Origin: an uncultured Faecalibacterium sp.
Lineage (GTDB): Bacteria; Bacillota; Clostridia; Oscillospirales; Ruminococcaceae
DNA length: 10,278 nt
Assembly (NCBI GenBank): GCA_934525325.1
Contig: CAKSZE010000061.1
Span: 1 to 10,278 of the forward strand
Direction: 5' to 3'
Positions 5,948 to 8,858 of this stretch are shown here, one piece after another. The notes under the pieces were generated by a model. The model was not told the DNA's origin. It ran no database searches and saw only the letters and a program-made list of their open reading frames with translations. Numbering within the stretch: the first letter of the stretch is position 1; every line of letters starts with the position of its first letter. Made by a program: the position numbers and the translations under genes.

Positions 5948-6229
5948 TTATTTGTTCGTCACAAATTCAATTTTGACATTCATCCCCATACCAGCGGCAA
6001 GGCGCTGCAAGGTGCGCAGAGAAGGGTTTGCATTCCCTCGTTCCAGCTTGCTGATATCGGCCTGTGCAATGCCGGTGCGCTCCGAAAGCTGTTTCTGGGT
6101 CAGACCGCTTTCCTTCCGGGCATCGAGCATGGCCTGCGCAATGGTAAGCTCCGGCTGAAGAGCATCCCATTCTGCCTTAAAGGAAGGCCGCTGTAATTGT
6201 TCATTCAAATAATTCCGAAAATCACTCAT
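5948..6229 (-). CDS. HigA-like antitoxin, XRE-family helix-turn-helix
   Basis: A 93-residue DNA-binding protein, predicted to neutralise the toxin encoded upstream and to repress the operon. The helix-turn-helix spans about residues 38-80: RKESGLTQKQLSERTGI forms the first helices, QADISKLERGNANPSLRTL the recognition helix and following turn. The N-terminal 35 residues form the extra segment typical of HigA-type antitoxins with RelE/HigB partners. The ATG overlaps the toxin stop as ATGA, and AAGGAG lies 8 bases before it inside the toxin gene, so translation is likely coupled. Toxin-first order matches HigBA systems. A close palindrome over the operon -10 (6613-6633) is a plausible binding site. 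Family is clear; the specific name HigA is by resemblance. Confidence 0.9.
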   Translation of the reverse strand: MSDFRNYLNEQLQRPSFKAEWDALQPELTIAQAMLDARKESGLTQKQLSERTGIAQADISKLERGNANPSLRTLQRLAAGMGMNVKIEFVTNK

Positions 6230-6585
6230 GAGGAACTCTCCTTTCGATAAAAATAGTCCGCACGATATTTTTGCGCCAGTGCAATTTCCTCCGGCGGCGT
6301 TTTCTGCGTCTTTTTGACAAAGCCGTTTGTCAATATGATCTGATGCCCTACCACGAAGAAATACAAAATGCGCGTAATGTTGCTGCTTTGTTTGGCGCGC
6401 AATTCAAAAATGCCGTCTCCCAGTGATTTGGAATAAGGCTCCCGCAGTTGTGTGCCGTTGGTTTCCAATAGAGAGATCGTGCCCAAAAGTTTTGCCAGCA
6501 TTTTGTCATCCAGCGTATCCAGAAAATCACGAACCGGGCAACTGCCGTCTGCCTTATAATAAAAATTCACTTCAAAAGCGGACAT
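6226..6585 (-). CDS. HigB/RelE-superfamily toxin (Gp49-like)
   Basis: A 119-residue toxin, expected to be a ribosome-dependent mRNA interferase held inactive by the downstream antitoxin. The family signature is visible: GDGIFELRAKQ (57-66), ITRILYFFVVGHQIILTNGFVKK (70-92, core beta strands, with the Arg72 that is conserved here) and the C-terminal TQKTPPEEIALAQKYRADY. The ATG at 6585 is preferred over an open extension to 6651 because GGAAAGGA sits 8 bases before it, and the longer form would start inside the promoter. Another ATG at 6594 lies directly against that ribosome site and is unlikely. The 4-base overlap with the antitoxin marks a two-gene operon. The gene is less GC-rich than nifJ and mgtE, consistent with acquisition by transfer, though I have not computed this. 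Confidence 0.9.
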   Translation of the reverse strand: MSAFEVNFYYKADGSCPVRDFLDTLDDKMLAKLLGTISLLETNGTQLREPYSKSLGDGIFELRAKQSSNITRILYFFVVGHQIILTNGFVKKTQKTPPEEIALAQKYRADYFYRKESSS

Positions 6586-6612
6586 TTTCAGCATCCTTTC
6601 CGGTCGGTGACA

Positions 6613-6651
6613 TCCTATTATTATAATATAGGATAAAACCAATATTGTCAA
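6613..6651 (-). promoter_or_regulatory. Toxin-antitoxin promoter with overlapping palindromic operator
   Basis: On the minus strand a perfect TTGACA (6646-6651) and TATTAT (6623-6628) are 17 bases apart. The arms TCCTAT (6613-6618) and ATAGGA (6628-6633) form an inverted repeat straddling the -10, the usual place for antitoxin autorepression. Promoter and palindrome are seen; binding by the antitoxin is inferred. Confidence 0.75.
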
Positions 6652-6756: not shown

Positions 6757-6868
6757 TGGGAAGCGGGGCCGCAACCGATTCCCAAGTAACATGATTCCTC
6801 CTCACACCAAGGCAATATCCAAGCAAAACACCCTTCTCTGTGCACCGCAACACAGAGAAGGGTGTTTT
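6757..6868 (+). ncRNA. Candidate small RNA with anti-Shine-Dalgarno linker
   Basis: The predicted transcript of about 112 bases has three parts. A 5' hairpin has TGGGAA/TTCCCA and CGG/CCG helices separated by a G-A mismatch (6757-6784). An unpaired linker of 40 bases carries CCTCCTC (6797-6803). A terminator hairpin follows at 6825-6868. No ORF with a ribosome site fits inside. CCTCCTC is exactly complementary to GAGGAGG, the mgtE ribosome site (7271-7277), and generally to ribosome sites. This layout is typical of trans-acting small RNAs in Firmicutes. I do not recognise it as 6S, SRP, tmRNA or RNase P RNA. Confidence 0.5.
6825..6868. terminator. 18-bp perfect terminator stem
   Basis: Arms 6825-6842 and 6851-6868 pair perfectly (AAAACACCCTTCTCTGTG with its complement) around an 8-base loop. 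The right arm ends in TTTT followed by GTTTCTG; the left end gives TTTT in the other direction. It isolates the mgtE promoter from upstream rightward transcription. Confidence 0.82.
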
Positions 6869-6915
6869 GTTTCTGTAAGACGCTGCAAAAATCTTTGCAA
6901 AACTTCGCTTTAGGG

Positions 6916-6944
6916 TTGACCCTATTTTTTTGCGGCGCTATAAT
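6916..6944 (+). promoter_or_regulatory. mgtE promoter
   Basis: TTGACC (6916-6921), a 17-base spacer, then a perfect TATAAT (6939-6944). Start of transcription is expected at about 6951-6952, giving a leader of about 330 bases before mgtE. This is the strongest promoter match in the window. Confidence 0.85.
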
Positions 6945-6951
6945 AAAAAAG

Positions 6952-7104
6952 GATATAGCCAATGCAGTGCCCGGTGCGGGTGCTGCGGCTGCGGAATTTA
7001 CGAAAACTGGGAGGTGAACGCAGGACAATGGACCCTGATCATAGTCGAAGTAGATCCACCGATGCGGTAGATCGGACAACAAAAAGTACTGCGTTCGCCT
7101 TTTT
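6952..7104 (+). promoter_or_regulatory. Structured mgtE leader with terminator-like closing stem
   Basis: A first hairpin GCAG-TG-CCC/GGG-TG-CTGC (6964-6986) is followed by a long-range stem: GGTGAACGCAG (7013-7023) pairs with CTGCGTTCGCC (7089-7099), 11 continuous pairs with one G-U. It ends directly in TTTTT (7100-7104), so the closing stem acts as an intrinsic terminator. Inside are TGGA/TCCA (7029-7032 with 7055-7058) and CCGAT/ATCGG (7059-7063 with 7071-7075), giving a three-way-junction shape. The 5' arm also covers the ribosome site of the small ORF at 7028. I could not match it to the M-box or other riboswitch consensus that I know. Attenuation of mgtE is the inferred role. Confidence 0.6.
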
Positions 7105-7123
7105 GCATCCGGCGGCTTGCTGA
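7028..7123 (+). CDS. Small upstream ORF (31 aa) in the mgtE leader, possible Mg2+-sensing leader peptide
   Basis: Starting at ATG 7028, the peptide begins MDPDHSRSRSTDAVDRTTKS, continues TAFAFLHPAAC and stops at 7121-7123. A strong GGGAGGTGA (7009-7017) precedes it at slightly long spacing, with AGGA closer in. An in-frame ATG at 6962 could give a 53-residue form, but it lies only about 10 bases after the expected transcript start. The Asp-Pro-Asp beginning recalls the MgtL leader peptide of enterobacterial mgtA (Met-Glu-Pro-Asp-Pro), whose acidic/proline codons make translation sensitive to low Mg2+. The terminator T-run of the leader falls within codons 25-26, so translation and folding compete for the same bases. 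Coding status is inferred; no homology search was possible. Confidence 0.5.
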   Translation: MDPDHSRSRSTDAVDRTTKSTAFAFLHPAAC

Positions 7124-7229
7124 AAAGCCCCCGGAACGGGAAAGGCGCGGCTTTGCGTGCGCGGAAACGGCTGCTTTTGCGGTATTCCGGCACCGGGCGG
7201 CGCGTTTTTTGTTTCCCGACCTGCTGCAT

Positions 7230-7277
7230 CCTCCGGCGCGGAGAAAGCCCTCTGCGCCGTACAGTACCCAGAGGAGG
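7230..7277 (+). promoter_or_regulatory. Alternative hairpins around the mgtE ribosome-binding site
   Basis: The ribosome site AGGAGG (7272-7277) lies 6 bases before the mgtE ATG. CCTCTG (7249-7254) can pair with CAGAGG (7269-7274), hiding its first half; CCTCC (7230-7234) can pair with GGAGG (7273-7277). A competing hairpin, CGGCGC (7234-7239) with GCGCCG (7254-7259), uses bases from both and would free the site. Between 7124 and 7229 I see a GC-rich spacer ending in a T-run (7205-7210) without a clear stem. Confidence 0.4.
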
Positions 7278-7283
7278 TAGCCC

Positions 7284-8858
7284 ATGGAAATGGAAGAAAA
7301 GAAGCTGGAGACCAACACGGAACAGAACCTGCCGGTGCAGGAGCTGCCCGCCGATATCCCCGCCGAGGTGCGTCAGAAGCTGGCCGAGGACCTGAACGAG
7401 GAAGCCACCGAGGACCTGAAGCAGGATATGCGGGAGGCAGAGCGGGAGGAAGCCAACGACGAAGAGGTCAAGGCAAACCCTGAGATGCTGACCAAGAGCC
7501 GTCTGCTGAAGCTGCTGATCAAAAAGCAGTACGTCAAGCTGCGCGAGGTGACCGAGGAAGAGCAGCCCGCCGACCTTGCCGAGCTGCTGGAAGAACTGGA
7601 CGAGAACAACCGTCTGGTGGTGTTCCGTCTGCTGAAAAAAGAAGTTGCCACCGAAGCCTTTGCCTATATGTCCGACGAAGCCCGGGACGATCTGGTGAAC
7701 GCCTTCTCGGACGTGGAGCTGGTGAGCGCCATCGAGGAGATGAGCTTGGACGATGCCGCCGACCTGCTGGAAGATATGCCCGCAGGCGTGGTCAAGCGGG
7801 TGCTGGAAAAATCCTCCCGGCAGACCCGCGAGAGCCTGAACAAGCTGCTGAACTACCCGGAAAGCTCTGCCGGCAGCCTGATGACCCCGGAATATGTCCG
7901 TCTGCGCAAGGATATGACGGTGGAACAGGCTTTTGCCGCCATCCGCAAGCAGGGCGAGAACGCCGAGACCGTCTACACCTGCTATGTGGTGGAGAGCAAC
8001 CGGCTGCAGGGCGTTGTCTCTGCCCGCAATCTGCTGCTGGCAGACCCCAAGACCCCCATCACGGACATCATGGATGACAATCTGGTCACCGTGAAGGTCA
8101 CCGACGATCAGGAGTTTGTGGCCCGTGAGATGCAGCGCTACGACTTTACCGCCATGCCTGTTCTGGACAACGAGGGCATGTTCGTGGGTATCATCACCAT
8201 CGATGACGCTATCGACGTTCTGACCGATGAGAGCACCGAGGATATGCAGAAAATGGCCGCCATTCTCCCGGATGACGATGCCACCACCTACTTTGGCACC
8301 AGCGTGTGGACCCACGCCAAGCAGCGCATTCCTTGGCTGCTGATCCTGATGCTGTCCGCTACCTTTACCGGCATGGTCACCACCCACTACGAGGAAGCCT
8401 TTGTCAGTCTGCCGCTGCTGGTCTCCTTCATGCCCATGCTGATGGATACCGCCGGTAACTGCGGCAACCAGATCAGCACCCTGATGGTGCGCGGTCTGGC
8501 ACTGGGCGAGGTAGAGCCTGCCGACTTTGTACGGGTGCTGGCCAAGGAGCTGCGGGTGTCTGCCATCGTGGGCGCGGTGCTGGGCATCGTGAACGGCCTG
8601 CGCATCTACCTGATGTACACCTTCCTCTTCCCCGGCCAGTACGCCAACGTGATGGGCTACGCCATCGTGGTCAGCGTGTCGCTGTTCTTCAGCGTCATTC
8701 TGGCAAAGCTGGTGGGCGGTATGCTGCCCCTTGCCGCCAAAAAGCTGGGTGCCGACCCCGCCATTATGGCTACCCCCTTCATCACCACCATCGTGGACGC
8801 CTGCAGCCTGATCCTGTACTTCCAGATCGCACAGGTCGTGTTCCGCAATATGATGTAA
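7284..8858 (+). CDS. mgtE: MgtE-type magnesium transporter/channel
   Basis: A 524-residue inner-membrane Mg2+ channel/transporter that acts as a dimer and is gated by Mg2+ binding to its cytosolic domains. Residues 1-67 are a very acidic, probably unstructured extension. The MgtE N domain (about 68-195) follows, then paired CBS domains starting at MTPEYV (200) and at DIMDDNLVTV (about 265) through about 330. The membrane part begins near IPWLLILM (349) and has five predicted segments. MDTAGNCGNQ (387-396) corresponds to the family's M-x-G-G-N-x-G-N-Q pore segment. ATPFITTIVD ends with Asp505, equivalent to the pore aspartate that coordinates Mg2+. The family is usually about 450 residues, so the extra length is mainly the N-terminal extension. 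AGGAGG 6 bases upstream sets the start, although the second ATG (codon 3) is also possible. Expression is probably controlled by the long leader. Confidence 0.96.
   Translation: MEMEEKKLETNTEQNLPVQELPADIPAEVRQKLAEDLNEEATEDLKQDMREAEREEANDEEVKANPEMLTKSRLLKLLIKKQYVKLREVTEEEQPADLAELLEELDENNRLVVFRLLKKEVATEAFAYMSDEARDDLVNAFSDVELVSAIEEMSLDDAADLLEDMPAGVVKRVLEKSSRQTRESLNKLLNYPESSAGSLMTPEYVRLRKDMTVEQAFAAIRKQGENAETVYTCYVVESNRLQGVVSARNLLLADPKTPITDIMDDNLVTVKVTDDQEFVAREMQRYDFTAMPVLDNEGMFVGIITIDDAIDVLTDESTEDMQKMAAILPDDDATTYFGTSVWTHAKQRIPWLLILMLSATFTGMVTTHYEEAFVSLPLLVSFMPMLMDTAGNCGNQISTLMVRGLALGEVEPADFVRVLAKELRVSAIVGAVLGIVNGLRIYLMYTFLFPGQYANVMGYAIVVSVSLFFSVILAKLVGGMLPLAAKKLGADPAIMATPFITTIVDACSLILYFQIAQVVFRNMM

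Follow-up and report, generated by a model that had tools for sequence, protein, structure and literature searches.

The stretch of 10,278 nucleotides analyzed here, from an uncultured Faecalibacterium sp., is referred to as the window. We identified on its forward strand an mgtE gene with MgtE, MgtE_N, and CBS domains, 99% identical to the mgtE of L001 (F. prausnitzii) and L002 (Faecalibacterium sp.), preceded by a leader with a small ORF. Farther upstream lie a Gp49-like (DUF891) and HTH_3 gene pair on the minus strand (5948-6651), which we take to resemble a HigBA-type toxin-antitoxin pair, and a perfect long inverted repeat, CAAAACACCCTTCTCTGTG ... CACAGAGAAGGGTGTTTTG (6824-6869), probably a terminator. 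From the promoter to mgtE, the features are as follows:

6916 to 6944, + strand: sigma-70 type promoter, TTGACC-17-TATAAT, with 11 of 12 matches
7010 to 7016, + strand: Shine-Dalgarno GGAGGTG of the leader ORF, overlapping the 5' arm of stem A
7013 to 7023, + strand: 5' arm of stem A, the putative anti-antiterminator, covering the ribosome site of the ORF (folding, swap test)
7028 to 7123, + strand: leader ORF MDPDHSRSRSTDAVDRTTKSTAFAFLHPAAC, 31 codons plus stop (ATG 7028-7030, stop 7121-7123)
7089 to 7099, + strand: 3' arm of stem A, in codons 21-24 and also within the antiterminator 5' strand (7085-7100)
7100 to 7104, + strand: T-run TTTTT behind stem A, present in the sequence, which may be a weak first terminator
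7140 to 7210, + strand: intrinsic terminator hairpin and U-run (TTTTTT at 7205-7210; folding, swap test)
7142 to 7161, + strand: proposed antiterminator 3' strand, partner of 7085-7100, inside the terminator 5' half
7224 to 7234, + strand: CTGCATCCTCC element, read by eye and present in several Faecalibacterium leaders
7270 to 7279, + strand: Shine-Dalgarno of mgtE, AGAGGAGGTA, from the sequence
7284 to 8858, + strand: mgtE, Mg2+ transporter of 524 aa, from domain matches

A strong promoter, a 31-codon ORF starting MDPD with its ribosome site in the 5' arm of a stem, an 11-pair stem running into TTTTT, and mgtE as the gene downstream had all been proposed in the original prediction, and each was identified in the window. 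A promoter-like box is also visible upstream in other Faecalibacterium loci. For the CTGCATCCTCC element, either the mgtE Shine-Dalgarno or the leader-ORF ribosome site is a possible pairing partner (region 7224-7277).

We inspected the upstream DNA of a first set of 80 mgtE loci, in which the loci of at least 65% identity form the close group. An ORF with a Met-Asp start and a Shine-Dalgarno-like stretch, the 2 search criteria, was identified in the window and in 38 close-group loci, giving 39 leaders; L035 was left out as a near copy of L034, the close-group loci without upstream DNA (L027, L037, and L042) were not counted, and the upstream search of L029 and L032 found no Met-Asp leader ORF. 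The ORF and its stem recur beside mgtE in 38 related loci, in line with the conservation that had been anticipated. As Met-Asp was a search criterion, Asp2 is not evidence of conservation. Outside the search criteria, Arg at codon 7 is the most conserved residue, found in 37 of the 39 leaders (CGA in 26, AGA in 8, AGG in 2, and CGG in 1), with Asp at codon 4 in 34 and His at codon 5 in 31. The conserved start is M-D-x-D-H-x-R, which in the window reads Met-Asp-Pro-Asp-His-Ser-Arg. Codon 3 is Pro in 24 of the 39 and otherwise Thr, Ser, Asn, Ala, or Asp, so the predicted conservation of an MDPD start holds for Asp4 but not for Pro3.

Among 22 distinct starts, third-position heterozygosity is highest at codons 4, 5, and 7 (0.40, 0.58, and 0.24, respectively), and first positions are equally variable at codons 3 and 6, whose residue changes. 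Codons 4, 5, and 7 hence vary mostly at the third position, the pattern expected of a peptide under selection, and the leader alignment suggested at the outset as a check yielded this synonymous-type variation with Asp4 and Arg7 kept. The remainder of the leader peptide drifts, the C-termini being free while the start is kept, and in all 39 leaders the stop lies beyond the stem A 3' arm, the arm being placed between +30 and +85. We also searched for the exact start with the pattern ATGGAYNNNGAYCAYNNNCGA, which has matches in 5 of 9 genomes of known loci. It matched in 9 of 394 genomes (reversed-pattern control, 0) and in 7 of a further 392 (reversed-pattern control, 10). Of the 16 places in these 2 sets of genomes, 2 are the leader itself (L088 and L089, on contigs of L001 and L004); the other 14 were rejected as leaders, being judged by eye to be without a comparable Shine-Dalgarno, and 2 of them stop after 2 codons. 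On this sequence search the exact start appears almost restricted to the known group, for which reason mgtE-based sampling was used instead.

Stem A comprises 11 pairs (7013-7023/7089-7099) closing a loop of about 65 nt and followed by TTTTT. The leader fold was better than all 200 dinucleotide shuffles, both for 6950-7106 (z -3.4) and for 7010-7106 (z -3.7). A pairing partner for the ribosome-site arm was found in each of the 39 leaders, and stem A covaries: in a swap test of 26 leaders, native arms gave -16.5 versus -12.7 kcal/mol for swapped arms, with 0 of 20,000 permutations as good (a count that, like those below, is not an exact probability, since the permutations ignore relatedness). 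TTTT is found within 10 nt 3' of stem A in just 10 of the 39 leaders (the window and 9 of the 38 relatives), so stem A is not a general terminator, and the proposal that the ORF-bearing stem is itself the terminator is not supported. Beyond the segment originally noted (6952-7123), a downstream hairpin with a U-run was identified in the window (7140-7210, -36 kcal/mol). Scanning for T-run hairpins 3' of the ORF start gave a pick in 38 of the 39 leaders and none in L030, the picks of L022, L024, L031, L034, and L038 either overlapping the ORF or being weak, and the terminator swap test in 26 leaders gave -24.2 native versus -17.6 swapped (0 of 20,000). We conclude that stem A mainly acts as an anti-antiterminator and that the terminator proper lies downstream, with a proposed antiterminator formed by the 3' arm of the one and the 5' half of the other.

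The stem A 3' arm can base-pair with the terminator 5' half (for example, L033, 16 pairs; L041, 17; L046, 15); in L002, L005, L007, L018, L019, and L020, the arm's best partner is the terminator 3' side instead. Taken alone, the window antiterminator does not outperform shuffles of the downstream sequence (p 0.30). Most Faecalibacterium leaders likewise show weak significance when tested singly, so pairing was assessed by swapping partners between species. With the first windows, in which L036 was ill placed and L046 short, the 26 leaders gave -14.7 versus -13.5 kcal/mol (254 of 20,000 permutations as good). With refined windows, in which the terminator was cut at its middle, the arm slightly longer, and L036 placed anew, the values were -16.9 native versus -15.2 swapped (21 of 20,000), and the 14 divergent leaders alone gave 7 of 20,000. 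The control, pairing the same arm with the terminator 3' half, gave -14.1 native and -14.2 swapped (12,704 of 20,000). The terminators of L014, L017, L028, and L031, and then of L036, had been placed by hand from motifs.

We folded 34 leaders to the middle of the terminator, mimicking RNA polymerase having reached that point, both free and under a ribosome mask covering -20 to +23 (codons 1-8); L022, L024, L030, L034, and L038, with a terminator missing or overlapping the ORF, were left out. In the unmasked window, stem A had 13.5 expected pairs and the antiterminator 0.2, and with the mask the antiterminator reached 8.9. Masked, the antiterminator had at least 5 pairs in 29 of the 34 leaders, with a gain of more than 3 pairs in 21, and its mean was 9.5 pairs versus 3.8 with the terminator 5' half shuffled; the native antiterminator exceeded the mean of its own shuffles in 31 of 34. 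Little or no masked antiterminator was found in L012, L015, and L048, and fewer than 5 pairs in L017 and L007, the latter being borderline. In 8 rumen-type loci (L023, L025, L026, L028, L031, L033, L036, and L040), the folding shows hardly any stem A, and no ribosome is needed for the antiterminator to form; the balance differs there, and full translation of the ORF would break the antiterminator, giving the same sign (efficient translation, gene off). The conserved ORF start and the 3 covarying helices are supported by comparison or computation, as is the mutual exclusion of anti-antiterminator, antiterminator, and terminator, the arrangement of a terminator-antiterminator attenuator. As computed, translation of the ORF would choose between exclusive folds that govern transcription.

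We therefore consider it rather probable that the leader is a translation-controlled attenuator with an acidic leader peptide, in which low Mg2+ leads to antitermination and turns mgtE on. With the leader ORF free of ribosomes, stem A would form, the downstream terminator would fold, and mgtE would be off. A ribosome held at, or repeatedly leaving, the first codons, Met-Asp-Pro-Asp-His-Ser-Arg in the window, would block the 5' arm of stem A and leave the 3' arm unreached, and the freed 3' arm would then pair with the terminator 5' half as the antiterminator, with mgtE on. Translation to the stop, a position beyond the 3' arm and in most cases short of the terminator, would first cover the 3' arm and then allow its recapture by stem A, so that the terminator forms and mgtE is off. 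That the ORF is translated, that Mg2+ is the signal, and that the response runs in this direction we infer by analogy with E. coli mgtL, low Mg2+ presumably destabilizing ribosomes on the early acidic and proline codons. It had been proposed that pausing would give read-through and drop-off termination, with the choice left open; with an antiterminator present, early pausing and early drop-off, which leaves the 3' arm uncovered, could both give read-through.

Acidic-start ORFs also precede more distant mgtE genes of the first set. We applied a fixed rule (Shine-Dalgarno match of at least 5, 8-60 codons, at most 400 nt from the gene) to 118 genomes sampled evenly across the class that includes G004 (the genome of L030), a class that we take to be Clostridia; 76 of these genomes have an mgtE match. 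From 88 rows, 80 were used and 77 were usable (L100, L104, and L175 were unusable), with 4 tandem second copies, 2 G901 fragments, 1 row below the cut-off, and G004:C19 (the same as L030) left out. Asp or Glu was identified as residue 2 in ORFs before 39 of the 77 mgtE genes (33 Asp and 6 Glu) in this sample, which partly overlaps the first set in that G004 and some species recur; the other 38 had no acidic-start ORF by the fixed rule. Counting all small ORFs of the class sample, Asp or Glu is second in 41 of 95, 2 of the 41 being inside M-boxes, and the opposite-strand control gave 0 of 30. Other genes at the same loci had an acidic-start ORF in 12 of 141 cases and an Asp start in 2 of 141, and mgtE differs from them with Fisher p values of 2e-15 (Asp) and 1e-11 (Asp or Glu), a well-scored start having been required of the 141 control genes (L039, an mgtE, excluded) and not of the mgtE genes. 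The 2 Asp-start ORFs of the control, VDAVSLVVYF and VDAISLVVYF, resemble an mgtE 3' end.

The sampled peptides include MDYDPLP, MDSDPLP, MDSSPLP, MDPGPLP, and MDYPDPLP, and further MDAYPGRC, MDAGSSSGT, and MDPIPSRSR. They often resemble MgtL, as with MDSDPLP and MDYPDPLP beside the MEPDPTPLP of E. coli. Across this wider set, His5 and Arg7 are not kept and the acidic second residue recurs. Of the 39 acidic-start leaders, 18 have a terminator of -9 kcal/mol or lower 3' of the ORF start, 13 have a ribosome-site arm whose partner outscores shuffles (z below -1.64), and 13 have an ORF ending 11-27 nt short of mgtE, 12 of the latter being without a -9 kcal/mol terminator. As the layouts differ, the shared part is the acidic start and not one RNA architecture. 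In a second class, that of G904 (the genome of L061, labeled Erysipelotrichaceae), which we take to be Bacilli, an acidic-start ORF was identified before 6 of 21 mgtE genes, 9 of 30 loci having been left out for lack of an intact MgtE frame. Its peptides include MDSGPLP, MDSYPSH, and MDDSPKL, and 2 of the 6 match the peptides of L061 and L056.

Among other transporter genes, an Asp-start ORF was identified by the fixed rule in 6 of 29 corA genes (30 loci, L180 left out), and all 6 are MDxDP: MDIDPYP, MDTDPYP, MDSDPGG, MDADPGE, MDADPRA, and MDADPRT. The first 2 and the last 2 look closely related, leaving about 4 kinds. Of 30 further corA rows, the 20 analyzed (1 only 230 nt long) held 1 Asp-start (L247) and 1 Glu-start ORF (L253), neither of them MDxDP; the pooled count is 6 of 49, L247 not included. 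By the same rule, no acidic-start ORF was found before 24 P-type ATPase genes below the MgtA cut-off or before 6 MgtA genes over it (a seventh row, a G022 fragment, left out). The mgtA genes of L207 and L208 share a leader with an acid-rich ORF, MSDESSSGMEPDGLSSGESS, running through MEPDG, the MEPD being as in E. coli MgtL.

An Rfam scan of the window (to E 5) gave only rows below gathering and no M-box (RF00380) row, and the M-box was likewise absent from 15 scanned close-group loci (all numbered above L020, 13 of them with the ORF). M-boxes were identified in 11 of the 60 scanned loci among the 80 of the class sample; 4 of these (L112, L115, L121, and L153) combine the M-box with an Asp-start ORF near mgtE, and the ORFs of L131 and L159 start MVAD and MNAG. 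In the first set, with 40 loci scanned, M-boxes were found in L043, L045, L047, L060, and L067. An MDSSP-start ORF, with Pro5 and no Asp4, follows the M-box before mgtE in L043, L045, and L047, and at L067:2781, the mgtE of a Halanaerobiales MAG, the M-box is followed by an ORF starting MDADPDD. Further, GA-cis RNA (RF02987) was identified directly before mgtE at L063:2890-2978 and L065:2512-2600, with a further copy at L065:4674-4764, a position that possibly hints at a role in Mg2+ control; no acidic-start ORF was found in these 2 loci.

It is conceivable, though doubtful, that the same attenuator answers to another signal, either slow decoding of Arg (often CGA) or His, or charged tRNA for Arg or Pro. 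The near-constant Arg7 with its frequent CGA fits such a signal, as does the control by charged tRNA-Pro of mgtP in the Salmonella mgtCBRU leader, described in the available portion of PMC8092293. However, no run of one codon was seen by eye in the leader peptides, nor one of regulating-amino-acid codons as in an amino-acid biosynthetic attenuator; His5 and Arg7 are lost in the wider set while acidic residue 2 recurs, and acidic starts are common to the leaders of 2 unrelated Mg2+ transporter families. That stem A is itself the regulated terminator, the downstream hairpin being secondary, is unlikely: the run of TTTT or more behind it in the window and 9 relatives would suit this role, but 29 of the 39 leaders are without a T-run despite a ribosome-site-arm partner in each, the loop is long, and the downstream terminator and antiterminator covary. 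A Mg2+- or ligand-binding RNA that needs no translation, with the ORF incidental, had been allowed for in the original prediction and is very unlikely; the leader is structured and M-box riboswitches precede other mgtE genes, yet the window has no Rfam match above gathering, and a peptide start kept through third-position change at codons 4, 5, and 7, with C-termini left free, disfavors an aptamer without translation. Most improbable is an ORF that is translationally coupled to mgtE or exposes the mgtE ribosome site and does not act through termination, since, although one-third of the wider-set ORFs stop close before mgtE, mostly without a terminator, and the CTGCATCCTCC element could cover the mgtE Shine-Dalgarno, the window ORF ends 160 nt upstream of mgtE with a strong terminator between.

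The leader, read as a translation-controlled attenuator responding to Mg2+, is most like MgtL/mgtA of E. coli and Salmonella, where a short Met-acidic-Pro-acidic ORF also precedes a Mg2+ transporter gene; here an ORF with a ribosome site starts MDPD, and the annotated leader peptide MgtL of E. coli starts MEPDPTPLP. In E. coli, low Mg2+ favors ribosome drop-off at EPDP of MgtL so that mgtA is transcribed, and full MgtL translation leads to Rho termination, according to the available portion of PMC11282234. Alternative RNA folds and an ORF whose efficient translation turns the gene off are further likenesses (available portions of PMC11282234 and PMC11552253), whereas the gene (mgtE), the Firmicute host, an intrinsic hairpin that may take the place of Rho-dependent termination, and the longer ORF set the window leader apart. 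The predicted MgtL-like leader found support, from the conserved peptide, the covarying stem, and the many related leaders, as an acidic ORF whose translation would be tied to termination before a Mg2+ transporter gene, but not as an ORF built into the terminator. The MgtL likeness consists of a few residues compared by eye, and convergence would be equally possible as common descent.

Salmonella mgtQ, in the mgtC-mgtB spacer, is described in the accessible text of PMC8092293 as a uORF whose Asp2 and Glu5 codons lower its translation and raise MgtB. It shares ribosome-destabilizing early acidic codons, alternative stems, and low uORF translation giving more transporter; unlike the window leader, it acts on mgtB translation and has 8 codons. 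The corL/corA leader of Salmonella and E. coli is alike in that corL translation is inversely related to corA expression (PMC11552253, in the text available), but corL has fewer acidic and Pro residues and is Rho-dependent, whereas the corA ORFs found here are MDxDP. The M-box likewise precedes mgtE in Firmicutes, and pausing in the mgtE riboswitch affects Mg2+-dependent attenuation (PMC12288461, in part); it differs in being an RNA sensor, has no match in the window, and in 4 class-sample loci stands before an acidic-start ORF. The mgtE motif, a riboswitch candidate that the available portion of PMC11109978 reports only in Thioalkalivibrio, is also a structured RNA before mgtE, but its P4 stem contains the Shine-Dalgarno and AUG of the gene itself, and that portion does not use the term leader peptide.

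Among the matches listed from titles and abstracts of the open-licence literature, none concerned an mgtE leader peptide or acidic leader peptides of Gram-positive bacteria, and those on the subject concerned E. coli and Salmonella. In the portions available, the term Gram-positive is absent from PMC11552253 and PMC8092293 and confined to the references in PMC11282234, whose sole mention of Bacillus in the text concerns an ABC-F factor. We regard this as weak evidence of novelty.

Ribosome-based Mg2+ sensing by acidic-start leader peptides may be a widespread form of Mg2+-uptake control in Firmicutes, recruited before at least 2 unrelated transporter families (mgtE and corA), with differing outputs (antitermination and gene-start coupling) and sometimes placed behind an M-box, a generalization that we hold to be evenly balanced between right and wrong. 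If true, the enterobacterial MgtL would be a single instance of a principle that is general or has evolved repeatedly, and unrelated transporters preceded by the same few codons should all respond to Mg2+. To our knowledge, the M-box RNA is the known means by which Mg2+ controls mgtE in Firmicutes. With leader peptides, common gut bacteria would have the ribosome itself as a second sensor, and early acidic codons as a Mg2+ gauge would not be an enterobacterial speciality.
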